Counted from the first letter of the stretch, positions 23,669 to 39,961 are shown. The stretch is 40,075 bases of DNA from an uncultured Chlorobiaceae bacterium (GCA_903887845.1 CAISRC010000090.1:1-40075), one strand, 5' to 3'. The notes: generated by a model not told the origin, from the letters alone. Numbers and translations: made by a program.

Positions 23669-24730
<1,062 letters not shown>

Positions 24731-24738
24731 GCATTGAA

Positions 24739-24776
24739 AAAGCCCCGGCTGCACCCTCATCACGCAGCCGGGCTTT
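24739..24776 (+). terminator. Rho-independent terminator after hemB
   Basis: AAAGCCCCGGCTGC and GCAGCCGGGCTTT form a 13-bp stem with one bulged C and an 11-base loop, ending in three T's. It starts 9 bases after the hemB stop and lies just before the aroC start. Confidence 0.75.
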
Positions 24777-24793
24777 GTAATTTAATAAAGCCA

Positions 24794-25987
24794 ATGATAC
24801 GATACTTTACCGCTGGCGAATCGCATGGTCCGGCTCTTTCGGCAATAGTAGAAGGAGTGCCGGCAGGTGTCTCCATCACCATGGAAGAGATAAACCATCA
24901 GTTAACCCGCCGTCAGCAGGGATATGGACGAGGCGGACGGATGAAAATCGAGACCGATCAGGCGGAAGTGTTATCCGGCATCCGGTTTGGCAAAACCATC
25001 GGGTCACCCATCTCACTCATTATTAAAAACCGTGACTGGGCAAACTGGATAACCTCCATGGCCCAGTTTGAAAATAACAATGATACGGTTCCAAAAATCA
25101 CTATTCCAAGACCTGGTCATGCCGACTTGGCAGGCCTGATCAAGTTCGGTTTTGATGATATTCGTCCTGTCATTGAACGTTCATCAGCAAGAGAGACTGC
25201 TGCAAGAGTGGCCGCAGGAACACTGTCAAAAGTGTTTCTGAAGGCACTTGGCATTGAAATCGGCAGTTATATATCGGCCATTGGAGCGGCTGCAGAACCC
25301 TCTGCCGATCTGCAGCTTGCCGGACTTCTCGGCGAAGGCGCAGAAGCGATCTCCCGGCAGGCCGACCTCTCTCCCGTTCGGATGCTCAGCAACACAACTG
25401 AGGCCGAAGCTGTAAAGGCCATTGATGAGGCAAAAAAAAGAGGTGATACCCTCGGCGGGATTATCGAAATATTTATCACCGGCGTTCCTGTTGGATTTGG
25501 CAGCTATGTACAGCACGATCGTCGGCTTGATGCGGCACTCGCCTCGGCTATCCTCTCCATTCAGGCCATCAAAGGCGTTGAAATAGGAACCGCCTTTGCA
25601 AATGCCCGAAAACCAGGTTCAGAGGTTCATGATGAACTCCACCTCTCACCCGAGGAAGGTGTGATCAGAAAAACCAACCGGGCTGGCGGTCTTGAGGGAA
25701 GCATGTCAAGCGGCCAGACCATTCACCTGCGGGCTGCAATGAAACCGATCTCCTCGCTGGTCACTCCCCTGCAGTCGTTCGACATCGAAACCCTGCAGCC
25801 ACTTCCCTCAAGATTTGAGAGGAGCGATACCTGTGCAGTTCCCGCTGCCGGCATCGTTGCCGAAGCCGTTGTTGCGCCGGTTATCGCCAATGCTCTCATT
25901 GAAAAGCTGGGTGGCGACCATCTTGATGAAATCCGCCAAAGACTTGACCTTTATCGGCAAAGCATCCGCAACACGTTTTGCGCCTGA
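24794..25987 (+). CDS. aroC: Chorismate synthase
   Basis: The 397-residue enzyme converts 5-enolpyruvylshikimate 3-phosphate to chorismate with reduced flavin, the last step of the common aromatic pathway. Signatures are AGESHGPALSAIVEG at the N-terminus, RQQGYGRGGRMKIE, and the conserved RSSARETAARVAAG. The longer frame starting at 24734 includes the terminator hairpin, so the ATG at 24794 (MIRYFTAGE) is the start. The length is normal. The convergent ndh gene ends 30 bases downstream. Confidence 0.96.
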   Translation: MIRYFTAGESHGPALSAIVEGVPAGVSITMEEINHQLTRRQQGYGRGGRMKIETDQAEVLSGIRFGKTIGSPISLIIKNRDWANWITSMAQFENNNDTVPKITIPRPGHADLAGLIKFGFDDIRPVIERSSARETAARVAAGTLSKVFLKALGIEIGSYISAIGAAAEPSADLQLAGLLGEGAEAISRQADLSPVRMLSNTTEAEAVKAIDEAKKRGDTLGGIIEIFITGVPVGFGSYVQHDRRLDAALASAILSIQAIKGVEIGTAFANARKPGSEVHDELHLSPEEGVIRKTNRAGGLEGSMSSGQTIHLRAAMKPISSLVTPLQSFDIETLQPLPSRFERSDTCAVPAAGIVAEAVVAPVIANALIEKLGGDHLDEIRQRLDLYRQSIRNTFCA

Positions 25988-26016
25988 CCTGTTGAAAACA
26001 TCCCCCCCCTTTGGCT

Positions 26017-27387
26017 TCAGAAACTCTTCTCTGAGTTGTCAAGGTTACCTTTGAGCGCCAGGTCACTCGAATCCAGAACACATGCGTTATCGGCGATCAG
26101 CTCCTCCTTCTCTGCTGGTTCGGCTGGTTCAGGAAGATTGGGATAAAACCTCCACTCTTTGTTGACAATACGGGCGCCATGACCAAACGTGAAGTATGAC
26201 CATCCCCACTGCATGAGCACAAATAAACGGTGTTTAACGCTGCTGAGATAGTAGATATGAACCCCGAGCCAGATAATCCATGCCGGCAGACCAGAAAGTT
26301 TAACATTACCCCTTTCGGCAATTGCCGAGTTTTTACCTATGGTCGCCATCTGACCCTTGTCGTTGTAAACAAACGGCTTTCTGCGTTTGCCCTGAAGATC
26401 AAGCAGGATATTCCTTCCAATAGACTGCCCTTCCTGAAGAGCAACAGAAGCAAGCCCGGGAAGTGTTCCTCCATCCTGCAGAGCAAAACATGCCTGATCG
26501 CCTCCAACAAAGACATCGGGATAGCCGGGCACACTTAGATCTTCAGCGACAATAATTCTCCCCGACTGATCAGTAGAAAACCCGATAGTTTTCCCTATGC
26601 TTGTCGCCCTGACACCCGCTGCCCAGAGCACGGTTCCGGCCTCAATTCTCTCATGGCCAATCTCCACACCATTGGCATCAATATTAGTAACCTTGCAGCA
26701 GGTCAAGATCTGGACACCCAGCTTTTCGAGGGCAAGGGTCGCCTTGGCCGAGAGTTCCGATGAAAACGTATGAAGAAGAGCAGGAGCCGATTGGGCAATA
26801 AAAATTCGAATCTCTTTCGGATCGATATTCTTGAAATATTTCGATAGATAGTAACGGTTCATCTCCCCGATTGAACCGGCAAGTTCAACACCGGTCGGAC
26901 CACCACCAACGATGACAAACGTCAGAAGCTTTCGTTTTTCTTCAGGATCCTGAGATCGTTCGGCATTTTCATACGCCTCCATGACCCTTCTCCGAATTTC
27001 AGCCGCCTGGGCAATTGTTTTAAGACCAGGAGCAAACTCTTCCCACTCATTATGGCCGAAATAATGATGCTTCGCTCCACAGGTCATGACAAGACTATCA
27101 TACTCTATTTCACCAAAATCCGTATAGACTATCTTGTTATAAGGATCAACTGTTTTTACAACTCCCTTGAAAACAGTCACATTCTTATACTTCGAAAGCA
27201 TCATGCGCAGCGGATAGGCAATTTCTCCCGCATTGAGGGCCGCCATGGCAACCTGGTAGAGAAGGGGCTGAAAGAGATGAAAATTATTCTTGTCGATCAG
27301 AGTAACCTTGATTTCCTTTCGATTACCAAGCTCTTTGGCAACATTGAGTCCTGCAAATCCGCCACCGACGATAACGATATGCTTCAT
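26017..27387 (-). CDS. ndh: Type II NADH dehydrogenase (NDH-2)
   Basis: The 456-residue flavoprotein oxidises NADH and reduces quinone at the inner membrane without pumping protons. The first Rossmann loop, IVGGGFAGLNVAKEL, binds FAD; the second, VIVGGGPTGVELAG, binds NADH; GGDQACF is the second FAD contact. The C-terminal part contains a hydrophobic membrane-anchoring segment (around WIIWLGVHIYYL). The ATG at 27387 (MKHIVIVGGG) fits the family; the longer frame adds 12 residues without support. The last 40 residues are Glu/Pro-rich and variable. Confidence 0.93.
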   Translation of the reverse strand: MKHIVIVGGGFAGLNVAKELGNRKEIKVTLIDKNNFHLFQPLLYQVAMAALNAGEIAYPLRMMLSKYKNVTVFKGVVKTVDPYNKIVYTDFGEIEYDSLVMTCGAKHHYFGHNEWEEFAPGLKTIAQAAEIRRRVMEAYENAERSQDPEEKRKLLTFVIVGGGPTGVELAGSIGEMNRYYLSKYFKNIDPKEIRIFIAQSAPALLHTFSSELSAKATLALEKLGVQILTCCKVTNIDANGVEIGHERIEAGTVLWAAGVRATSIGKTIGFSTDQSGRIIVAEDLSVPGYPDVFVGGDQACFALQDGGTLPGLASVALQEGQSIGRNILLDLQGKRRKPFVYNDKGQMATIGKNSAIAERGNVKLSGLPAWIIWLGVHIYYLSSVKHRLFVLMQWGWSYFTFGHGARIVNKEWRFYPNLPEPAEPAEKEELIADNACVLDSSDLALKGNLDNSEKSF

Positions 27388-27702
27388 TAAACAAAATTGG
27401 AAATTTACCAGCATTACACACACAATTCCTTAGAACTGTAAATAATATATCGAAAATTATTTTGTCTGCTATAAAACGGCTGACTCATATCCATCTTTGC
27501 CTGAAAAAGCACTCCCTTATACCGGCAAAAACCTTAATATTTTCATTTTCTCTGCTATCGGTACCAACAAATAGAAAAATTCTTCATCTTTGCACTTTTT
27601 TAATACTCTTTTTTTACGTAAATAAAGTAAACGCGCTGTCGTATTAAAAAAGCAATGGTCTGGTTATAATAAATTTGACCTGAAATTTTAACATGCATTG
27701 CA
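27388..27702. other. Divergent intergenic region between ndh and tpsA
   Basis: This AT-rich stretch of 315 bases separates two outward-facing genes and must hold both promoters. A perfect TATAAT is present at 27665-27670, 32 bases before the tpsA ATG, but no good -35 box lies 16-18 bases upstream of it. No ORF or RNA gene is supported. Confidence 0.5.
27665..27670 (+). promoter_or_regulatory. Candidate -10 element of the tpsA-tpsB operon
   Basis: TATAAT matches the consensus in all six positions and would give a leader of about 25 bases. The matching -35 region (around 27642) is poor, so activation by a regulator or chance occurrence is possible. Confidence 0.3.
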
Positions 27703-30700
27703 ATGAAGAACACTTTTCACGTTATCTGGTTAAACACCAAAGATTCCTTTATTATCGCTGCCGTTGTCACACAATCATTGCTTGCTGGAACAAGAGCTTT
27801 TGCTTTACCTGCCGACGGGCAAGTCGCTGCCGGGCAGGCCACCATCAGTACGCCATCATCTACGACAATGCAGATAGGACAGGAGAGCAACCATGCTGTC
27901 ATCAACTGGAACTCTTTCGGTATCGGCAAGGGGGAAGCCGTCAACATTATTCAACCTGAATGCCAGTCCACCCTGCTCAACCGGGTATCAGGTAACGATC
28001 CTTCATCAATTTTCGGGACACTCACAGCAAACGGCAGGGTCTTTCTGGTAAACCCCAACGGCATTCTGTTTGCCCCCGGCGCAAGCGTGAACGTCGGTGG
28101 ACTGGTGGCTTCGACGCTCGCCATCAACGACAACGACTTTCTTGGCGGAAAATACACATTTTTTCAGAACGGCGGAACAACATCAGTTATAAACCAGGGT
28201 TACTTGAAAGGCGGCTTCATCGCTCTGCTCGGAAACAATACGACAAACACGGGAAGCATTATCACAACCAAAGGTTCAACCGGCCTCGGTGCCGGATCTG
28301 GAATTACCCTTGGTCTGGATGCTTGCGGCCTGGTATCAATAAAGGTTGACCAGAGTGAATATAACGCCCGGATCACGAACAACGGAGTCGTAGAAGCTGA
28401 CGGGGGAGCTGTCATAATAACTGCTTCTGCTGCCAATGAGCTGCTGGGCTCGGTGGTGAATAACAGTGGCAAGATACGTGCAAGCAGCATAACAGAACGA
28501 GATGGCAAAATCGTCATCGAAGGAGACGCCATCATCAACACTGGTACGATAAGCTCTTCCGTCATCAACGCCAGTGCAAATAATTTTGTCGATTCTGGCA
28601 CATGGAATGCCGACGACATCAACAGGGGTGGCGCCATAAGCATTAATGCGACAGGCAGCATCGAACAAACCGCCACCAGCCTTATGACTGCTGATGGCAG
28701 CAGTGGCGGCAGTATCAGCATCCAGGCAGGAGAAAAACTGTACCTCTCCGGTACCATCAGTACAAACGGCAGCTCGATACAAGGAGGCCAGATCACCATC
28801 ACTGCGCCACAAACACTTCTTGCAGGCGCCTGCGTATCGGCTGATGGCCAGACAGGAGGAGGCAGCATCCTTATTGGTGGTGGCTGGCAAGGCAAAGACG
28901 CCTTGCTTGCCAACGCAACAAACACCGTTATTACAAAAAGCAGCAGGCTGAACGCCAACGCTCTTGACAACGGCAACGGCGGCACTGTTGTGGTCTGGTC
29001 GGAGCAGTCAACCGCTTTCGCTGGCGCTATTGAAGCGAAGGGAGGAACAAACAGCGGCAACGGGGGAAAGGTCGAAGTATCTGGACATGAAAACCTTGCC
29101 ATGAGCGGACAGATCACCATGACCTCACCATACGGCGAAAACGGACTGCTGCTGATTGATCCACGGAACATCACTATTGACGCTACAACAACGAACACTC
29201 TCTTCTCTCTCATTTCGCTGTCTGATGCCAATCCGGCAGAAGGTGACCAGCATGGCTCCGGCAACATCGTCGAACTTCTGAACGGCAATATTATTGTTGC
29301 CAGCCCTCTGGATGATTTTGTCGCAACCGATGCCGGAGCGGTCAGACTCTATAAACCCGACGGCACACTGCTTTCAATGCTGAGCGGTTCAAGTGCCAAT
29401 GATCTTGTTGGTGAAAAAGTGTCCGCCCTGACGGGCAATAACAACGCCGTCACCATAACACGAAAATGGTCGAACACTGGTGTAGGTGGTGTCGGAGCCG
29501 TAACCTGGATTGATGGCACTACGGGTGTCAGTGGAATCGTTGCCGAAACGAACAGCCTTATCGGTTCTGCGCTCAATGATGGCGCTCTCTCTACTCTGAC
29601 AACGCTAACAAACGGAAACTACGTGGTCTGCTCCCCATCCTGGGATAATGGCTCTGTTGTTGATGCAGGAGCCGTAACCTGGGGAAATGGAACAACAGGA
29701 ACTGCCGGGGTGATAAGCGCAGCCAACAGCCTGGTCGGTTCAAAGACAAGTGATGGGGTTTCATCCAAAGTAACCGCATTGACAAACGGCAACTACGTTG
29801 CGTCGTCATTGCTTTGGGACAATGGGTCTACAACCAACGTAGGCGCAGTAACCTGGGGGAATGGACTCAGCGGCACCGTCGGCGTAATAAGCGCAGCCAA
29901 CAGCCTCATTGGCTCCAAAGGCGGAGATAATGTCGGCGCCGTCACTGCCTTGGCGAACGGAAACTACGTGGTAAATTCGCCTCTCTGGAATGGCAGCACT
30001 ACTGATGCTGGAGCTGTGACCTGGGGAAATGGGCTTGGTGGCACGGTAGGAACAATCAATGCATCCAACAGTCTGGTTGGTTCTACAGCAAGTGACAAAG
30101 TTGGTTCGGCGATAACCGCACTATCCAACGGTAATTACGTTATTAACTCGCCGATGTGGGATAATGGAACAACCATCGACGCAGGGGCGGTGACCTGGGG
30201 GAATGGAGACGGGGGAACTTTCGGGTTGGTCAGTACAGCCAACAGCCTGATCGGTTCGTCGGCCAATGACGGTTTATCATCAACGGTGATGGCCCTGGCA
30301 AACGGAAACTATGTTGCAGGTTTTCCCAATTGGGACAATGGTATGATGGTGAATGCCGGTGCTGTAACGTGGGGAGATGGCACAAGAGGCACTGTCGGAA
30401 CGATAGGTATAACCAACAGCCTGGTCGGTTCGTCAGCCAATGATGGCATATCCTACACCATGGCAGCCCTGTCAAACGGAAACTATGTCATAGGCTCACC
30501 ACATTGGGACAACGGAACTGCCCTTGACGTGGGAGCGGTAACCTGGGGAAATGGGGGTGGAGGCACCATAGGGACTATAAGCGTAGCCAACAGCCTCATT
30601 GGTTCTGCCACAAATGACGGCTCTGTTTATAACATAATAGCTCTATCAAATGGCAACTACGTGATTGGGTCTCCCAATTGGGACAATGGCGCTGCCACTG

Positions 30701-33700
30701 AAGCAGGCGCTGTGACTTGGGGAAATGGAGACGGGGGAACTTTCGGAACAATAAGCATAGCAAACAGCCTGGTTGGATCAATAAAAAATGACTTTATCGG
30801 ATCAGATAACTCCAGCTCAAACAAAATAACAGCCCTGACAAATGGTAATTACGTTATCTCCTCCAGCGCATGGGACAAGGGATCTGTCGTCAATGCAGGG
30901 GCCGTAACCTGGGGAGACGGGCTTGGCGGCACGGTGGGAGAGATAAGCGCTGCCAACAGTCTGGTCGGTTCTAAAACCGGTGATCAGGCAGGCGCAATAA
31001 CGGTAGCACTGCCAAACGGCAATTATGTGACGGGCTCATCAACTATGGACAATGGTTCTCTTTCCAATGCAGGATCCGTTACCATGGGAAATGGAGACAG
31101 CGGCCTCGTCGGTGCGGTCAGCACAGCTAACAGCCTTATGGGCTCCAGCAAAGATGATCAACTGAGTTCCGGCGGCATTACACCTCTCAAGGTCGGCAGC
31201 ATGAACGGCAGTTTCGTTGTCAGTTCCATGAACTGGTCAAATAATACCGGCAAAGTGGAGATTCTGACATCTCAAGCTGTACAGGAGTCTTTGCTGCAAG
31301 AAGATTATACATCCAGCCCAGGCACAGACAACACCTTTACTCCAAACCAGATTACAAAGCTGCTCAATGCCGGTGACAATGTCATGCTGAAGGCCAACAA
31401 CAACCTCACCGTCAATTCAGCCATCGTCACTGAAAACCCCGTTGGTAATGGCGGTAATCTTGATCTTTATGCAGGACAAAGCATACTGATCAATGCCAAT
31501 ATCACGACTGACAGCGGAAACCTGACACTTGTTTCCAATGATACGCAGGCAAACGGTGTCGCTGATGCCTGGCGATCGGCAGGTATCGCTGTCATCACCA
31601 TGGCTGCCGGAACTTCAATCAACGCCGGAACAGGTAACGTGACCATCGAACTTCGGGATGGGGCAGGAAACACTAATAGTGAGAGTGGTGACATCACTCT
31701 GCGCACTATCTCTGCTGGCAGCATCAGCGCAGTGAACTACGGGACAACGGCTGGATCAGGCATCACACTCGCTTCGGGCACTCTTGCGGCAATCACAAAC
31801 AGCGGCAACAGCATCGTTCTGGCCGGCAAAGATTTCAACAACAGCGCGGGTGTAATACTCTCAACTGCCGGAACAGCACGATGGCTGGTCTATTCAGCAA
31901 ACCCAGCCTCAACCATCAAAGGCTCCCTGACATCTGACTTCCGTCACTACAACGCAACTTACACAAACGATGCCCCTGTCAAGGTGAGCGAATCCGGCAA
32001 CGGGTTCATCTACTCTTGTGTTCCAGGCCAGCTTTCCGTCAACATGACACTTGCAAGCGGCAAAAGCTACAGTTATTACGGAGATCAGCCAGATGCCACA
32101 TACAGTTATACCCTGACGGGGTTTTCAGATAATGAGGATAATGCTGAAAATATCGGCTTGACGGGCACCATGATAGTGAGTGGTCTTCCAACAACTGCTT
32201 CAAATACAGGCAATTACACTATTAACTATGCCAGTGGTTTATCAAGCAGCAGCGGTTTCACCTTTGCTGCGGGCAATGGACTCCCCTATACCGTTAAACC
32301 CCTGCCGATTGATATTTCCGCTGATGATCAGGACAAAACCTATGATGAAAATGACCCGCCCTTGACATGGGATACTGAAACCCAAAGTAACGGACGCGGT
32401 CTTCTTGCCGGCGACATTTTCAGCGGCGAACTGGCCCGAGTGCCGGGAGAAGATGTCGGCAGCTATGCGATCACCCTGAACACACTGAACAACAGTAACT
32501 ATGCCATCAACTATACAGGTGCCAACCTGACTATCAATCCGCGCCCGATTACTTTGAGTGCCAGGAATGCAAGTACGATCTATGGGGAGAGGGATCCTGC
32601 ACTGGAGGTTACCATCACCAACGGCAGCCTCGGCAGTATTACTGTAAGTGATGCGTTGACCGATGTCACGGGCATCCTGAGTCGGCAGACAGGTTCCAAT
32701 GCAGGCAGTTATGACATCAACCTCGGCTCAGGAAGCAAGGCTGGCAACTACAACATCAGCTTTGTTACCGACAACAATGCCTTCTCTATTACCCAGAGAC
32801 CAATCAATATTTCAGCAGGTGCACTAAACAAAACCTATGGTGACGCCGATCCGACACTCACCTGGTCAGCCGAAGAGCAAAGCAGCGGACGCGGTCTTCT
32901 TGCGGGTGACAGTTTCAGCGGCGAGCTCAGCCGGGCAGAAGGAGAAAATGTGAGCAATTACGCCATCGTCCTGAATACACTGAATAACAGCAACTACGCG
33001 ATCAACTACACTGGCGCAAGGCTGACCATCAATCCGCGGCCCCTGACGTTGATGGCCAAAGCAGCGAGCACAACCTATGGTGAACCGGATCCTGCGCTGG
33101 CGGTCACCATCACCAGCGGCAGTCTCGGCAGTGTAACAGTGAGTGACGCATTGAGCGACATCACCGGCCTTTTGAGTCGGCAGAGTGGATCTAATGTCGG
33201 CAGTTACGATATCAACCTTGGTTCTGGAAGCAAGGCCGGCAACTACGACATTACCTTTGTGACCGACAATAATGCTTACTCAATCACCAAACGCCCGATA
33301 AACATTTCGGCCAATGCTCTCAGCAAAATTTACGGTGACGTCGATCCGATGATGACCTGGCAAGCTGAAGCTCAAAGCAGCACCCAACAGGCGCTCAGCC
33401 TGAATCAAACATTCTATACAGCCAGTGAGATCTATCTCAATCCAGACTACACTCCCGGCATGATCTCACAAACATCTGAACCTGTGAAAACCGCCGCCGA
33501 TTTGCTATCCATAACAAACGACCGGAATGACGGCGAGAAGACAACAATAGAATCCGAACTCACTTTCGCAAACCGATCCGGAAACACCTCTAATGGCAGT
33601 TTTATTGCTGTCAGCGGGATAGAAGTGCCTGAACCTGCAGAAAAATTCTTCATCTTTTCCTTACCAGAGAGCATGTTCAATCACAGCAATCCAGATGCTG

Positions 33701-33888
33701 TAATCTCTCTTGAAGTAGCCTCGGTTAATGGCTCATCAATACCGTCATGGATGTCGTTTGATCCTGAACGGAAGATCATAAGCGGAACACCACCAAAAGA
33801 GGCCGCAGGAGAATATCGGGTTGAACTTATCGCCAAGGACCAGTTTGGAGGCGAAGTACTGACAGTGGTACTGATCAAAGTCGGATAA
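27703..33888 (+). CDS. Two-partner secretion exoprotein (TpsA, filamentous-haemagglutinin type) with repeat regions
   Basis: The 2061-residue protein has an extended signal peptide (cleavage probably near TRAFA, about residue 35) and a TPS secretion domain at residues 40-270 with NWNSFGIGKGEAVNI, GRVFLVNPNGILFAPG and GGLVAST. Residues 270-520 are Gly/Asn-rich beta-helix sequence. Residues 560-1160 hold ten 58-residue repeats built on NGNYV..S..WDNG and GAVTWGNG..G, resembling FG-GAP/integrin-type propeller blades. A second beta-helix part (1190-1430) ends with RWLVYS. Then come MBG-type domains (YGD.DP..TW) to about 1895, and a C-terminal cadherin-like domain (about 1960-2061, with IPSWMSFD and ISGTPP). 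TpsB recognises the N-terminal domain and exports the protein to the cell surface, probably as an adhesin. tpsB follows after six bases. Confidence 0.9.
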   Translation: MKNTFHVIWLNTKDSFIIAAVVTQSLLAGTRAFALPADGQVAAGQATISTPSSTTMQIGQESNHAVINWNSFGIGKGEAVNIIQPECQSTLLNRVSGNDPSSIFGTLTANGRVFLVNPNGILFAPGASVNVGGLVASTLAINDNDFLGGKYTFFQNGGTTSVINQGYLKGGFIALLGNNTTNTGSIITTKGSTGLGAGSGITLGLDACGLVSIKVDQSEYNARITNNGVVEADGGAVIITASAANELLGSVVNNSGKIRASSITERDGKIVIEGDAIINTGTISSSVINASANNFVDSGTWNADDINRGGAISINATGSIEQTATSLMTADGSSGGSISIQAGEKLYLSGTISTNGSSIQGGQITITAPQTLLAGACVSADGQTGGGSILIGGGWQGKDALLANATNTVITKSSRLNANALDNGNGGTVVVWSEQSTAFAGAIEAKGGTNSGNGGKVEVSGHENLAMSGQITMTSPYGENGLLLIDPRNITIDATTTNTLFSLISLSDANPAEGDQHGSGNIVELLNGNIIVASPLDDFVATDAGAVRLYKPDGTLLSMLSGSSANDLVGEKVSALTGNNNAVTITRKWSNTGVGGVGAVTWIDGTTGVSGIVAETNSLIGSALNDGALSTLTTLTNGNYVVCSPSWDNGSVVDAGAVTWGNGTTGTAGVISAANSLVGSKTSDGVSSKVTALTNGNYVASSLLWDNGSTTNVGAVTWGNGLSGTVGVISAANSLIGSKGGDNVGAVTALANGNYVVNSPLWNGSTTDAGAVTWGNGLGGTVGTINASNSLVGSTASDKVGSAITALSNGNYVINSPMWDNGTTIDAGAVTWGNGDGGTFGLVSTANSLIGSSANDGLSSTVMALANGNYVAGFPNWDNGMMVNAGAVTWGDGTRGTVGTIGITNSLVGSSANDGISYTMAALSNGNYVIGSPHWDNGTALDVGAVTWGNGGGGTIGTISVANSLIGSATNDGSVYNIIALSNGNYVIGSPNWDNGAATEAGAVTWGNGDGGTFGTISIANSLVGSIKNDFIGSDNSSSNKITALTNGNYVISSSAWDKGSVVNAGAVTWGDGLGGTVGEISAANSLVGSKTGDQAGAITVALPNGNYVTGSSTMDNGSLSNAGSVTMGNGDSGLVGAVSTANSLMGSSKDDQLSSGGITPLKVGSMNGSFVVSSMNWSNNTGKVEILTSQAVQESLLQEDYTSSPGTDNTFTPNQITKLLNAGDNVMLKANNNLTVNSAIVTENPVGNGGNLDLYAGQSILINANITTDSGNLTLVSNDTQANGVADAWRSAGIAVITMAAGTSINAGTGNVTIELRDGAGNTNSESGDITLRTISAGSISAVNYGTTAGSGITLASGTLAAITNSGNSIVLAGKDFNNSAGVILSTAGTARWLVYSANPASTIKGSLTSDFRHYNATYTNDAPVKVSESGNGFIYSCVPGQLSVNMTLASGKSYSYYGDQPDATYSYTLTGFSDNEDNAENIGLTGTMIVSGLPTTASNTGNYTINYASGLSSSSGFTFAAGNGLPYTVKPLPIDISADDQDKTYDENDPPLTWDTETQSNGRGLLAGDIFSGELARVPGEDVGSYAITLNTLNNSNYAINYTGANLTINPRPITLSARNASTIYGERDPALEVTITNGSLGSITVSDALTDVTGILSRQTGSNAGSYDINLGSGSKAGNYNISFVTDNNAFSITQRPINISAGALNKTYGDADPTLTWSAEEQSSGRGLLAGDSFSGELSRAEGENVSNYAIVLNTLNNSNYAINYTGARLTINPRPLTLMAKAASTTYGEPDPALAVTITSGSLGSVTVSDALSDITGLLSRQSGSNVGSYDINLGSGSKAGNYDITFVTDNNAYSITKRPINISANALSKIYGDVDPMMTWQAEAQSSTQQALSLNQTFYTASEIYLNPDYTPGMISQTSEPVKTAADLLSITNDRNDGEKTTIESELTFANRSGNTSNGSFIAVSGIEVPEPAEKFFIFSLPESMFNHSNPDAVISLEVASVNGSSIPSWMSFDPERKIISGTPPKEAAGEYRVELIAKDQFGGEVLTVVLIKVG
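29400..31220 (+). repeat. Ten in-frame 58-codon repeats inside tpsA
   Basis: The Val codon of the GAVTW core occurs at 29500, 29674, 29848, 30016, 30190, 30364, 30538, 30712, 30904 and 31078. Seven of the nine spacings are exactly 174 bases (58 codons); the others are 168 and 192. The consensus is roughly LxNGNYVxxSPxWDNG, then AGAVTWGNG, then GTxGxISxANSLVGS. The last copy is degenerate (GSVTM) and half copies flank the array (GAVRLYKPDG, GKVEILTS). Confidence 0.95.
32300..33381 (+). repeat. 495-bp tandem duplication of paired MBG-type domains inside tpsA
   Basis: Matching sites are exactly 495 bases apart: GGACGCGGT at 32392 and 32887, the SYDINLGSGSK segment at 32704 and 33199, and GGTGACG at 32839 and 33334. 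A third copy begins in register and stops matching after CAAAGCAGC at 33373-33381 (second copy 32878-32886), where unrelated sequence takes over. Each unit holds two different domains of about 80 residues. Confidence 0.9.
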
Positions 33889-33894
33889 ATAAAA

Positions 33895-35604
33895 TTGAAA
33901 AATACAGCCTGTTGTATGACGGCATCATTGAACATACTTCCCTTCATCTTAGCCTTTACGGCCAGCACCACTTTCGCGGCTAATCTGCCTGATGCTGGCC
34001 AACTTCTCAAGGAAAGTACTCCCAGGCCATCGTTTGTGCCTCAGCACGCTTTACCTGATCATCAGAAACAAATTAGCCAGGGGAAACAACATCAAAGTAC
34101 AACTCGCATTACAGTTACAGGCTTTACCTTTACCGGTAACACCCTTTTTTCCGACAGTGAGCTTTCTACGCTCATGGCTGATTATAAAGGACAGGAACTG
34201 ACGCTCACCGAGCTGGATCATGCAGCCTTAACAATCACCAATGCCTATCGAAAAAAAGGATATTTTCTTGCATCCGTCTTTTTCCCCCCTCAAACACTGA
34301 CCCCCGGCACACCTCTTGTCATTGAAGTTATGGAAGGCGTCCTTGAAACGATACGCGTTGAAACCAACCCTGCTGTTACAAGAACACAGAAAGCTCTTTT
34401 GGAATATTATGCCAAGCAGGTGCCCTCCGACCAGCCTCTTGAAAATGGATCCCTTACCTCCATGGTCATGAAAACCAATGAACTGCCCAATATCTCTTCA
34501 CGTATCCTGCTGGAACCAGGCTCAAGACCCGGCACAACAAAAGCAACCCTTGAAGTCATCGAAGGCAAACCCTACGCCTTCTCAGTGAACATTGACAACT
34601 ATGGAAACGAAGCAACAGGCGCTAATCACTTCGGCGGCTGTATGGAACTTTTTTCTCCTCTGCATCTTGGTGATCATTTAACCCTGCGCATACAGACATC
34701 AACAATCGGAGAGCTGCAGAATGTGCAAACAGGCTATACAATACCAGTCACTCCGTACGGAACAAAAATGGGATTTAACTACAACTACGTCACTTATCAG
34801 ATGGGCGGATTATTCAAGACATTAAATGCTTACGGCGATGCCCACAACATCTGCTTTTCCCTAACCCAGCCAATCATACGAAACAGAAATCTTATCCTGA
34901 ATGCAACATTTGCCGGAGAAGGTAAAATATTGGACGATCGAATTGAAAGTGCACAATACAGTAATCAACGACTTTCGGCATCTTGTCAGACAGGGCTTAC
35001 CGGCATACAGATGGATAACATACTTGGTGGAGGCTCCACCTCCCTCTCCCTTGGTTTTATCAGAGGACAATTGGGTCTCAATGATGCCGAAACGCTTTCA
35101 AGAGACCAATCATCAAACGGATTGCACACCAATGGAGGTTATGCCAAGTTTAACATGAGTCTTGCCCGTACCCAGACAATTTCTCATGGCTGGACTCTTT
35201 ATGCCGGGGCTTATGGGCAATGGAGCAATAAAAACCTGAACAGCTCAGAACAACTCTCACTGACTGGACCCAGCGCGGTACGTGCTTGGCAAACAAGTGA
35301 GTCCTGCGCCGATCAAGGTTTTATTGCAACCGCTGAACTGCGCTATCTTTTTGACTCAACAGGGGAACTTCCAGGCAAACTGGAACTCTCCGCGTTTGTT
35401 GACCATGGTTATGCGACACTTCATAACACCCCCCTTCCCGATGCAGGCAATAACACCAGCAACCTGATCGGAGCTGGATTTGGGGTAAAATGGTTTGTTG
35501 CCAAAAACTATAGCCTGCAGTCGACAGCCGCATGGAAAATTTCAGGCGCAAGTTCTCCAGCCGAAATTCCCATGGTATATGCGCAGGCAATAAAAAGTTT
35601 TTAG
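33895..35604 (+). CDS. TpsB outer-membrane transporter (ShlB/FhaC/HecB family)
   Basis: The 569-residue protein has a signal peptide (cleavage near TFAA), then a POTRA domain (about residues 65-145: TRITVTGFTFTGNTLFSDSELSTL, RKKGYFLASVFFPPQ) and a second periplasmic segment, followed by the C-terminal beta-barrel with the conserved SVNIDNYGNEATG and a final Phe. It secretes the upstream TpsA protein through the outer membrane. The start given is a TTG six bases after the tpsA stop, which provides a Lys-containing signal peptide; an ATG at 33916 (MTASLNIL) is an alternative. The close spacing shows co-transcription with tpsA. Confidence 0.92.
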   Translation: MKNTACCMTASLNILPFILAFTASTTFAANLPDAGQLLKESTPRPSFVPQHALPDHQKQISQGKQHQSTTRITVTGFTFTGNTLFSDSELSTLMADYKGQELTLTELDHAALTITNAYRKKGYFLASVFFPPQTLTPGTPLVIEVMEGVLETIRVETNPAVTRTQKALLEYYAKQVPSDQPLENGSLTSMVMKTNELPNISSRILLEPGSRPGTTKATLEVIEGKPYAFSVNIDNYGNEATGANHFGGCMELFSPLHLGDHLTLRIQTSTIGELQNVQTGYTIPVTPYGTKMGFNYNYVTYQMGGLFKTLNAYGDAHNICFSLTQPIIRNRNLILNATFAGEGKILDDRIESAQYSNQRLSASCQTGLTGIQMDNILGGGSTSLSLGFIRGQLGLNDAETLSRDQSSNGLHTNGGYAKFNMSLARTQTISHGWTLYAGAYGQWSNKNLNSSEQLSLTGPSAVRAWQTSESCADQGFIATAELRYLFDSTGELPGKLELSAFVDHGYATLHNTPLPDAGNNTSNLIGAGFGVKWFVAKNYSLQSTAAWKISGASSPAEIPMVYAQAIKSF

Positions 35605-35741
35605 CGAAATATTGTTTGGGGTTGAGCACCTGGCGGCACTATTGACAAGAAAACAGAAATTCGTGAAACAGTAATTTTTTGCGTACACTTTGCTTGCCAC
35701 TGCCGACAAGGGAAACCGGTAACGACAATCATTGTAAACCC

Positions 35742-36170
35742 ATGCGTATTTCACGAAAAATAGAGATCGATTACGGCCATACACTTCCAAACAGCTTTTC
35801 TTTCTGTAATCAACTGCACGGCCATCGTGGGGTGATTGTCGCCACCATTGAAGGTGAGCTGATTAAGCGCAAGAATGACAGTGAAGAGGGAATGGTGATG
35901 GATTTCAAGTTTTTAAAAGAGATCATGCTGGAGCACATTCACGACAAACTTGATCATGGATTCGCGGTATGGAAAAATGATCATGAAGATCTTGACTTCA
36001 TCATGAAACGCAATTCAAGGGTTCTGGTGACTGATGAACCCCCAACGGCTGAATGCCTTGCCAAATGGGCGTTTAACCAGATCCAGCCTCATTTACCTGA
36101 AGGCGTAAAGCTTAAACGGCTTCGCTGGTATGAGACGCCAAACAATTGGGCGGAGTCTGACGGGAACTAA
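35742..36170 (+). CDS. queD: 6-pyruvoyl/6-carboxy-tetrahydropterin synthase homologue (PTPS/QueD family)
   Basis: The 142-residue protein has the family zinc ligands: the His of YGHTLPN and HGH in CNQLHGHRG, with the catalytic Cys four residues before HGH. PTAECLAKW and RWYETPNNWAE carry the conserved pterin-binding Glu residues. It acts on 7,8-dihydroneopterin triphosphate, either towards queuosine (QueD) or biopterin (PTPS). The nearby sepiapterin reductase gene at 37376 makes a biopterin role plausible; motif alone does not decide. The ATG at 35742 (MRISRKIEIDYG) is the conserved start. The gene is alone between tpsB and radC, same strand. Confidence 0.83.
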   Translation: MRISRKIEIDYGHTLPNSFSFCNQLHGHRGVIVATIEGELIKRKNDSEEGMVMDFKFLKEIMLEHIHDKLDHGFAVWKNDHEDLDFIMKRNSRVLVTDEPPTAECLAKWAFNQIQPHLPEGVKLKRLRWYETPNNWAESDGN

Positions 36171-36234
36171 AAATACGCTCTATTTACAATGATAAAATTG
36201 CGATTATTCGGCGATTTCAATAAAAACAGAAAAA

Positions 36235-36903
36235 ATGCGTCTTCATGATTTTGACCCAGAAAACCGACCAAGAGAGAGGTTTCTCAGCAGCGGACCATCC
36301 TCACTTAGTCCGGCCGAACTGTTGGCAATCATCCTGCGTTTCGGCTCAAGAAAACTCAATATTGTTGACACCTGTAACGAAATTATTGCAAGGTTTACTC
36401 TGGAAAAGCTTGTCAATATAACCATCGGGGAACTTCAGGAGATTGAGGGTATCGGAGAGACCAAAGCCATGCAAATTGTAGCTATCTTTGAATTGAACAA
36501 GCGGTTGCACTACACCCGGAACAACAATAAAAAAATCCAGACGGCACGAGATATTTTTGAATACATGGCAGGCCGCATCCCTGATGAAACAAAAGAACAC
36601 CTCTTCGTCCTGCACCTGAACACCAAAAATCAGATCATTAAAACTGAACTCGTTTCTGTAGGAACGCTTAACGCCGCCCTCATTCATCCAAGAGAGGTGT
36701 TCAAGGCTGCAATAAAGGAAAGCTCACATGCCATTATACTCGTGCACAACCACCCTTCCGGCGACGTTGAGCCAAGCAATGCTGACAAACAGGTCACCAA
36801 CCTCCTCAAACAAGCAAGTTCCGTTATCCAGATCGACCTGCTTGACCATGTCATTATTGGTAAAACGGAATGGTTCAGCTTTAGGGAAAGCTCCCTGCTC
36901 TAA
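36235..36903 (+). CDS. radC: DNA repair protein RadC (JAMM/MPN+ family)
   Basis: The 222-residue protein has an N-terminal helix-hairpin-helix-like part ([30 protein letters not shown]) and a C-terminal JAMM metalloprotease-like domain with the metal motif [16 protein letters not shown]. The family was named for a repair phenotype later traced to another gene, and its real function is unsettled. Length and motifs are normal. It converges on the cold-shock gene with nine bases between the two stops. Confidence 0.92.
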
Positions 36904-36912
36904 CAACAATCT

Positions 36913-37167
36913 CTAAGCGAACGAGACCTGAACTGGCTGAACATTTGCTGATCCGCTCTGAAAAATCTCACGAACATTCTTTGCCTGCAATCCTTTTCCG
37001 GTTTTGTCGAGCTCAAAATCCACTTCAGCATCTGGATTCAGTACCTTGAAACTTTTTTCCGACTGGATCGCCGAAAAATGAACAAAAATATCCTCTCCTC
37101 CATCGGGATTCAGAAGAAAACCATAGCCCTTTTTACCATCAAACCATTTAACTTTAGTAATAGCCAT
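36913..37167 (-). CDS. Cold-shock domain protein (CspA family)
   Basis: The 84-residue protein is a single cold-shock domain that binds RNA or single-stranded DNA. The RNP1 motif (KGYGFL) and RNP2 motif (DIFVHFSAI) are intact, in the order KVKWFDGKKGYGFL then GGEDIFVHF. A short C-terminal tail after VREIF is extra to the usual 65-70 residues. The ATG at 37167 (MAITKVKW) is chosen; a frame seven residues longer has no support. Confidence 0.92.
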   Translation of the reverse strand: MAITKVKWFDGKKGYGFLLNPDGGEDIFVHFSAIQSEKSFKVLNPDAEVDFELDKTGKGLQAKNVREIFQSGSANVQPVQVSFA

Positions 37168-37375
37168 GATAAACACAGAATTCACCATTTTTCAAAAAGA
37201 GCAAAGCGACATGAGAATGACGCCCTTGCGGCTTATTTACCCATGAAATATATATTTTTTCTCAAAATTCTCACACATTACCGCATATTACACAATCATA
37301 TTACATCACACACGCAATCCAAAAGAAAGCAAGCGTTTTTCGTATACATAAAAACAGCTCCCCATCTTTATTAAA

Positions 37376-38107
37376 ATGAAACATATCATCATCATAACCG
37401 GTGCGGGCAAAGGAATCGGCAAAGCTATCGCCATTGACTTTGCTCGCGCAGCCGGAATTCAAAACAACTTTAATCCTGTGCTGATCCTTGTTTCCAGAAC
37501 GCTTTCCGATCTTGAAACCGTTGCTGACACCTGCCGTTCTTACGGTGCAGATGCAGATATCATTCAGGCGGACATTGCCGACACCGCACAGATTGACCAG
37601 CTCGTTACTGCCACGCTTGAGCGCCACGGCACGATTGACTGTCTTGTGAACAATGCCGGAGTCGGCAGGTTCAAACCACTTGCGGAACTGACCGAGGAAG
37701 ATTTTGAGTATACCATATCGACAAACCTGAAAGGCACGTTTTTCCTGACGCAGAAGGTCTTTCCGGTCATGGAAAAGAATAAATCCGGTCACATTTTTTT
37801 TATTACCTCTGTTGCTGCAGAAACAGCCTTCAAGAGCTCTTCGATCTACTGCATGTCAAAGTTTGGTCAAAAAGGACTTGTAGAAGCGATACGGTTATAC
37901 GCAAAAACGTGCAATGTTAGAATTACCAATGTCATGCCTGGCGCAGTCTATACTCCAATGTGGGGAGAGGTGCCGGAAAAGATGAAAGCAACCATGATGA
38001 TGCCGGAAGATATTTCAGGCCCCCTTGTCAACGCCTATCTCCTGCCACAACGAACATCAGTGGAAGAACTTGTCTTGAGGCCGGTGTGCGGTGATATCAA
38101 TGAATGA
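37376..38107 (+). CDS. Sepiapterin reductase (short-chain dehydrogenase)
   Basis: The 243-residue protein starts MKHIIIITGAGKGIGKAIA, with the TGxxxGIG NADP-binding loop. It has NNAGVG and the catalytic Tyr-Lys pair in SSIYCMSKFGQKG, with the Ser in ITSVAAE. It closely resembles the structurally studied sepiapterin reductase of Chlorobium tepidum, including MPGAVYTPMWG, MMMPEDI and the C-terminal RP..GDI, as I recall that sequence. That enzyme reduces a 6-pyruvoyl-tetrahydropterin side chain to a threo-biopterin, which Chlorobium species glycosylate. A PTPS/QueD homologue lies 1.2 kb upstream. A general ketoreductase role is less likely. Confidence 0.85.
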   Translation: MKHIIIITGAGKGIGKAIAIDFARAAGIQNNFNPVLILVSRTLSDLETVADTCRSYGADADIIQADIADTAQIDQLVTATLERHGTIDCLVNNAGVGRFKPLAELTEEDFEYTISTNLKGTFFLTQKVFPVMEKNKSGHIFFITSVAAETAFKSSSIYCMSKFGQKGLVEAIRLYAKTCNVRITNVMPGAVYTPMWGEVPEKMKATMMMPEDISGPLVNAYLLPQRTSVEELVLRPVCGDINE

Positions 38108-38196
38108 AGAAGGCAAAAGCTCTTGCGTTGTGGGAAAGCAGGTTTTTTTCCTGTATTTTCTGATTCTTCTTTAATAAATTTTGAGTGGACCCCATC

Positions 38197-38655
38197 ATGA
38201 GTCTGAAGGAAAAAATAGATCTGGATCTGAAAAATTCGATGAAAAGCGGCGATAAAACCCGCCTGAACGCCATACGCTCCATTCGCGCCGCACTGCTTGA
38301 AAAAGAGGTTTCCATTCGCGTTGGCGGCATCGCCGTACTGACGGAAGAGCAGGAACTGGAAGTGCTGGTGAGTCTCGCAAAAAAACGGCGTGACGCCATT
38401 GAGCAGTTTACCGCCGGGAATCGTCTCGACCTTGCTGAAACTGAGCAGGCAGAGTTGGTCGTGCTTGAGGAGTATCTTCCAGCGCCAGTCTCCGACGAGG
38501 AAGTAACAACCGTCATACAGAATATCATCACAAAAACAGGCGCTGTCTCCATGAAAGAGATGGGCAAAGTGATGGCAGAAGCCATGAAAGCACTTAAAGG
38601 AAAAGCTGACGGCACCAAGGTTCAGCAGATTGTCAAGTCACTGCTTTCAGCATAA
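38197..38655 (+). CDS. YqeY/GatB-related protein
   Basis: The 152-residue protein is a YqeY-family (GatB/Yqey domain) protein: [32 protein letters not shown] at the start, then an acidic, helical segment, and [26 protein letters not shown] near the end. The domain is related to the tRNA-binding tail of the amidotransferase subunit GatB, but the role of the free form is unclear. The ATG at 38197 is used; a GTG four codons upstream is possible. serS begins 19 bases after its stop, and the pair is likely co-transcribed, linking it to translation. Confidence 0.88.
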
Positions 38656-38674
38656 CCCATTCGCACTCACCATC

Positions 38675-39961
38675 ATGCTTGATATCAACTATATCCGCCA
38701 GAATCCGGACGAGGTTGTTGCCATGCTGCACAACCGGCAGCTCTCTGTGGAAGAGCCGAAACTTCACCAGTTACTTGAATTGGACAAAAAACGCAAGGAA
38801 CTTGTAAGAGAATCAGATGATCTGAAAGCCTTGCGCAACAAGCGGTCAAAAGAAATTGCCGAAATGAAAAAAAGCGGCATAAGCTCTTCTGAATTAGAAA
38901 AACAAATCATCTTGAATGTCGTTACACCCGGAGAGATTGCACGAATAGATGAAACACTCAGTCAGCTTGAAAAAGAGATGGAGGATATCCTTCTTGCCCT
39001 TCCCAACAAACTGCATCCGTCAGTTCCAGTCGGACGAAGCGCTACCGACAACCAGGTTTTCGGAGAGCCGGTAACTTTTGCATACGACCTTGATTTTTCG
39101 GTTAAAAATCACCTTGAACTGGGCAAATCCCTCGGAATTCTAGATTTCGAGCGTGGTGCAAAGGTGAGCGGCGCCGGATTTCCCGCCTATATTGGCAAAG
39201 GCGCCCGTCTTGAGCGCGCCCTGATCAATTTCATGCTCGACACGCATAGCGAACGTCATGGCTATACCGAGGTTTTTCCACCATTTCTGGTCAACCAGGA
39301 GTCGCTGCGAGGCACCGGACAGTGGCCGAAATTTGCCGACCAGGTGTACCACATCGGTGAAGATGACCTCTATGCCATCCCGACCGCAGAGGTACCGGTC
39401 ACCAACCTCCATCGGGGTGAGATGCTTGAGACCGCAAGTCTGCCCATCTCTTATGCCGCCTATTCAGCCTGTTTCCGGCGTGAAGCGGGAAGTTATGGCA
39501 AGGATACCAGAGGCTTCCTCAGGGTGCATCAGTTCAACAAGGTGGAGATGGTGAAATTTTCCCGTCCAGAGGATTCTTATGCAGCGCTTGAAGAGATTCG
39601 CTCTCATGCCGAAGCAATTCTTGTTGCACTGAAGATTCCCTACCGGGTACTGCTGCTCTGCAGCGGCGACATCAGCGCCAACGCTACGAAATGTTACGAC
39701 ATTGAGGTGTGGTCACCGGCGGAACAGAAATATCTTGAGGCATCAAGCTGCTCAAACTTTGAGGATTACCAGGCAAGAAGATCAAATATCCGCTTCAAGC
39801 CTGACAACAAGTCCAAACCGGAGTTTGTACACACCCTGAACGGTTCAGGCCTCGCAACCTCACGGCTCATGGTCTCCCTGCTTGAGCACTACCAGACCCC
39901 TGAGGGCAACATAAGGGTGCCCGAAGTATTGCAGCGCTATACCGGATTTGAGGAGATATAA
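38675..39961 (+). CDS. serS: Seryl-tRNA synthetase
   Basis: The 428-residue class II enzyme charges tRNA-Ser with serine. It has the long N-terminal coiled-coil arm (about residues 27-105), motif 2 ([23 protein letters not shown]), the [12 protein letters not shown] segment, and motif 3 ([16 protein letters not shown]). It begins [15 protein letters not shown], the usual N-terminus; an upstream GTG frame overlaps the previous gene and is not supported. Length is normal. Confidence 0.96.

Follow-up and report, generated by a model that had tools for sequence, protein, structure and literature searches.

The tpsA product encoded in the window (the whole stretch of DNA analysed, 40,075 nucleotides from an uncultured Chlorobiaceae bacterium) is, as judged from its sequence, a TpsA filamentous exoprotein of the two-partner secretion (TPS) class paired with a transporter, TpsB, and it carries twelve blade-like units of the Pfam repeat DUF5650 between the two arms of its beta-helix-like shaft. 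Our overall reading, to which we give a probability of about 0.65, is that these FG-GAP-like blades are inserted in the shaft as a lateral ligand-binding head. Neither the protein class nor the repeat family is new, and the two are commonly combined in the genus; the apparent novelty lies in assigning a fold to DUF5650, in the insertion site that relatives share, and in the series of blade numbers among them. A literature search found no paper on DUF5650 by name, although this is weak evidence since most subscription journals lay outside the search.

Architecture, insertion site and distribution

The assignment to TpsA draws on a TPS domain that scores 108 bits against the curated Pfam cut-off of 33.5, on an NPNG motif (NPNGILF, residues 117-123), and on the cognate TpsB, with its POTRA domain and ShlB barrel, that adjoins tpsA (Table 1). 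An earlier note on this DNA had called the product a two-partner secretion exoprotein with MBG domains and a cadherin-like end, and Pfam agrees on both counts, finding four MBG_2 domains and, at residues 1979-2052, He_PIG; the NCBIfam matches in the product are to the TPS N-terminus only. The pair is flanked in the window by housekeeping genes (23744-27423 and 35679-39961), namely ALA dehydratase, chorismate synthase and an NDH-2-like oxidoreductase, then PTPS, RadC, a short-chain dehydrogenase and seryl-tRNA synthetase.

Table 1. Features of tpsA and its partner gene, in coordinates of the window, with the basis of each assignment.
Feature	Position	Strand	Basis
tpsA, 2061-residue TPS exoprotein	27703..33888	+	ORF call, Pfam
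TPS secretion domain with NPNG motif, residues 40-284	27820..28554	+	Pfam PF05860 (E=7.5e-31); TIGR01901
First putative beta-helix arm, residues 285-494, ending in GLLLIDPRNITID	28555..29184	+	Sequence; homologous flank in TpsA with and without the block; beta-helix fold taken from the family
DUF5650 block, twelve blade-like units, residues 501-1190	29203..31272	+	Pfam PF18888 (E=5e-198); blade count; AlphaFold model (pLDDT 88, pTM 0.84)
FSLIS strand at the N-terminal end, residues 501-505, which may close the last blade	29203..29217	+	DSSP strand, pLDDT ~85; presumed pairing partner
First, divergent blade, FG-GAP-like NGNIIVASP..DAGAVRLY	29218..29421	+	Sequence, alignment, AlphaFold model
Last blade (GSFVVSSMNWSNNTGKVEILT), three strands only, no fourth strand of its own	31174..31272	+	Alignment, AlphaFold model
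Second putative beta-helix arm, residues 1207-1440, from TFTPNQITKLLNAGDNVMLKANNNLTV	31321..32022	+	Conserved flank in relatives; matching coil in TpsA without the block; presumed fold
Four MBG_2 (YGX) domains, limits approximate	32050..33357	+	Pfam PF18676 (E=2.2e-56), 4 stretches
He_PIG, putative Ig / cadherin-like end, residues 1979-2052	33637..33858	+	Pfam PF05345 (E=7.8e-10)
tpsB, outer-membrane transporter, directly downstream of tpsA	33895..35604	+	Pfam ShlB (E=6.9e-30), POTRA_2 (E=1.5e-17)

The block of Chlorobiaceae relatives lies between LLxDPxNITI, the end of the first arm, and TFTPxQITxLLNxGxNVxL of the second, and both flanks are conserved around it across the genus. In TpsA proteins of the same genus that lack the block, L118 and L120 of this genome among them, the corresponding motifs are joined by short linkers (e.g. 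LFDPYNVTIT-...-ILNSDITSRLDAGTNVTV and LLDPADVTIS-...-VTTLQTALSTGNVIITT). Because the same motifs flank either the block or a short linker, the block is, on this comparison, a large domain inserted where the beta-helix shaft tolerates it, at a single point between two coils. TpsA proteins of Pseudomonadota have the block at that point too (an Agrobacterium tumefaciens strain, Gallionella, Comamonadaceae and an alphaproteobacterium). The earlier note had the block interrupting two beta-helix arms; the interruption stands, and the arms are beta-helix-like and homologous to those of other TpsA proteins, from which their fold is presumed. With FHA, HMW1 and HxuA the protein shares a TPS domain with NPNG motif, a beta-helix-like shaft and a neighbouring TpsB, but it differs from exoproteins of that ordinary class in having a big blade domain where those have a short linker.

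Two further proteins bear on the surroundings of the site. A TpsA of the same genus on L123:1-15000, at least 3572 residues long, shows the empty site; among TpsA proteins without the block, its TPS domain lies closest to those of the clade that has it, and the protein continues downstream into MBG-like and long serial repeats. An Oscillochloris (Chloroflexota) protein (L047:8477-14011) keeps the beta-helix flanks, the block and the MBG domains, with no TPS domain by Pfam.

Among the 61 genomes of the genus searched for the TPS domain and DUF5650, 44 have the former and 39 the latter, and all 39 with DUF5650 also have TPS. The view that such a block is unusual in a TpsA holds within the source genome, where one of five TPS ORFs carries it, but not for the genus at large (39 of 61 genomes), nor with the Pseudomonadota proteins in view. 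In most of the genus loci examined, contig ends apart, the locus is syntenic, lying after ALA dehydratase and chorismate synthase and often before PTPS and RadC, with tpsB downstream of tpsA. A tree of TPS domains places blocked and unblocked TpsA proteins largely apart, with three label changes, although long branches blur the number of insertions. The block also stands right after a signal-peptide-like start in stand-alone secreted proteins without TPS (Anaerolineaceae, Verrucomicrobiaceae, Acidobacteria and Chitinophagaceae), and it is therefore not tied to filamentous adhesins. Plasmid relatives amount to one record, from Hymenobacter, with 44% identity over 90% of the query.

The four other TPS-domain ORFs of the source genome, on contigs C130, C82, C46 and C136 (L117-L120), contain no DUF5650, and at least two of them have autotransporter-like GTLTLSGxNxYTG passenger repeats. 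A Synechococcus ORF (L064:3734-16387) of 4218 residues holds about 25 diverged DUF5650-like units, and its C-terminus resembles, by eye, a CHAT protease domain.

Repeat family and predicted blade fold

The block is, by its Pfam match, a member of the named repeat family DUF5650 (PF18888), catalogued as of unknown function and named in the earlier note as a candidate to search. The match covers 11 stretches of the product and scores 641 bits against a gathering cut-off of 25 (E=5e-198). At the level of sequence the block does not differ from the family; our additions are a predicted fold and the position that the block takes within TpsA. The motif NSL[VIM]GS occurs ten times (at residues 617, 675, 733, 789, 847, 905, 963, 1021, 1085 and 1143) with steps of 58, 58, 56, 58, 58, 58, 58, 64 and 58 residues, so that the near-constant 174-base step reported earlier is found exactly in seven of the nine spacings, and the motif [LM].NG[NS][YF]V has nine copies in the protein and at most 0 in any of 1000 shuffles. 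Ten repeats is nevertheless a slight undercount, because the degenerate first, second and last units bring the total to twelve over residues ~501-1190. Tandem Repeats Finder missed the array in the DNA because neighbouring units are only ~60-67% identical where in register, a divergence from which it follows that the array is old.

Membership of FG-GAP, to whose blades the earlier note had likened the repeats, is not borne out. We find no PF01839 match in the tpsA product at E<=1 or across the whole genome at E<=0.001, and no DxDxDG-type calcium-binding loop within the block (0 matches). A comparison by hhalign of the block with the FG-GAP alignment is weak (E 0.009, probability 4.6), with the corresponding motif on the first blade aligned, and single units reach E 0.013 over 20 columns only; a PDB sequence search with the block profile gave no match at E<=10. 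The resemblance lies in the layout, since G..V..L.NGN.VV.SP.WDNG...GAVTW of the block parallels FG.SVA.GDVNGDG..D..VGAP.YDNG..DEG.VFVY of bacterial FG-GAP proteins, with the segment VxSPxWDNGxxxxAGAVTW close to VGAPxYDNGQxDEGxVFVY.

The AlphaFold model of residues 481-1217, made from 23 aligned sequences, has a mean pLDDT of 88 and a pTM of 0.84 for the block. The short strands of each modelled unit are predicted to follow one another as in a four-stranded blade (V.AL, NYVV.S, AGAVTWG and NSLVGS), and the structure prediction that the earlier note had proposed as a check thus yields propeller-type blades, as that note supposed, rather than ordinary beta-helix coils. When the model is compared with the PDB by Foldseek, integrin-alpha propellers rank first (E 4.5e-10, probability 1.0), and matches in a viral library include FG-GAP proteins. 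TM-scores, however, do not exceed 0.26 by query or 0.38 by target, and the rmsd is mostly above 10 Å. A geometric model of rings gives the observed rmsd as that expected for seven blades of a roughly twelve-fold ring, although this is a rough guide only, as the model is crude and its toy TM-scores exceed the observed ones. From the Foldseek ranking, the low TM-scores and the large rmsd, we read the individual blades as integrin-like and the overall predicted curvature as unlike that of a seven-bladed ring; a seven-bladed propeller is set aside on the count of twelve units and on the TM-score to seven-bladed propellers (<=0.38). The block is therefore FG-GAP-like without being FG-GAP or seven-bladed: it shares its predicted blade topology with FG-GAP and integrin-alpha propellers, its best PDB matches, but has a low global TM-score (<=0.26 by query), twelve units instead of seven, no FG-GAP match in Pfam and no DxDxDG loop. 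It may still work as FG-GAP blades do.

Closure and variation of the blade array

We put forward, tentatively, a single-chain twelve-bladed closed propeller whose ring size has drifted between 9 and 15 by gain and loss of blades while it keeps to a single beta-helix site in different phyla. Aligned blocks, from TpsA and stand-alone proteins and from other phyla, have a lone strand at the start and, at the finish, a blade that lacks the fourth strand, and in our model the lone N-terminal strand is placed at a pLDDT of ~85. A lone first strand together with a three-stranded last blade is the ring-closure (velcro) pattern, which in alignment and model favors closure. Ph1500 is a twelve-bladed beta-propeller described as the largest known (PMC9218822), and the block would match its blade number if it closes, but Ph1500 reaches twelve by oligomerization whereas the units here are all on one chain. 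Such a ring could possibly exceed any single-chain natural propeller named in the literature compared here, a claim on which we would not wager heavily.

The blades could instead line up as a blade solenoid, either an open arc or a superhelix, in which the unit number could vary freely, and we regard this as a live option at somewhat below even odds. Blade number, counted in relatives by the C-strand motif and by eye (the motif misses some last blades, and a looser unit HMM without filters gave noisy counts that a recount replaced), is 12 in the source protein and close relatives, 13 in L097, 9 in L107, 15 in L134, and 11 in the Agrobacterium-type protein, a spread consistent with an arc. The model of the nine-unit relative, with PDB matches of the same kind as those of the twelve-unit block, also departs from seven-bladed integrins by an rmsd of roughly 11-15 Å, about the same as the twelve-unit model, where the geometric model, crude as it is, expects ~6 Å for a nine-bladed ring. 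The nine-unit model is, however, the poorer one (pLDDT 79, last blade disordered), and the strand pattern at the two ends of the block is that of a closing ring. We also note that L107 and L134, the extremes for Chlorobiaceae here, belong to a second lineage with another type of locus in which tpsB is upstream.

Folding as two smaller propellers (e.g. 6+6) is unlikely. There is a precedent in 15 WD40 blades predicted as rings of 7 and 8 (PMC9218822), but the twelve blades are modelled at a pLDDT of ~90 with no weak linker in mid-block, and among the PDB matches listed neither known rings nor two-propeller proteins exceed a TM-score of 0.38.

The differences in blade number among lineages could also be taken to reflect a fast-varying array, with recombination of blades providing antigenic or specificity variation, which we consider quite improbable. 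Relatives 84-88% identical have their blades in the same order, one for one, and 11 of 12 blades still correspond at 72% identity, which shows no shuffling of the array over that span of divergence; the low DNA identity of neighbouring units also speaks against it. This blade-for-blade order in close relatives suggests instead that individual blades have kept distinct roles. That ordinary beta-helix coils simply continue through the block, as beta-helix-like flanks and the frequency of repeats in TpsA proteins might lead one to expect, is scarcely credible given a separate Pfam family, a four-strand blade pattern, the integrin matches, and a unit of ~58 residues that is far longer than one beta-helix coil.

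Proposed working of the blade head

The most likely role for the block, by analogy, is as a lateral head for ligand binding on a filamentous adhesin. The TPS domain would enter TpsB and the chain would cross the outer membrane and fold outside the cell into the beta-helix shaft, and both secretion via TpsB and subsequent folding outside the cell are established TPS biology (PMC5422565). The blade domain would fold as a lateral head on the shaft, with the MBG and Ig-like domains serving as a stalk, and the head would bind a ligand, glycan or protein, leading to cell-cell or surface contact. We infer a lateral binding head because of this TPS biology, because in HxuA, itself a TpsA protein, an extra-helical M loop makes the functional contact (PMC5422565), and because roles in carbohydrate recognition or protein contacts are typical of VCBS-like propellers (PMC9218822). 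A closed ring serving a single function would not usually range from 9 to 15 blades among relatives, and this variation counts against the reading.

The analysis suggests a fold for DUF5650, a repeat family still of unknown function, and relatives with 9 to 15 blades offer a testable system for the blade capacity of propellers. One loop of the TPS beta-helix also emerges as a reusable place for inserting a large domain. Giant RTX-type adhesins and pili are the structures to which cell-cell contacts of green sulfur bacteria have mainly been ascribed (PMC4053972, PMC7762298), and TpsA proteins with DUF5650 would be a widespread second candidate for this role.
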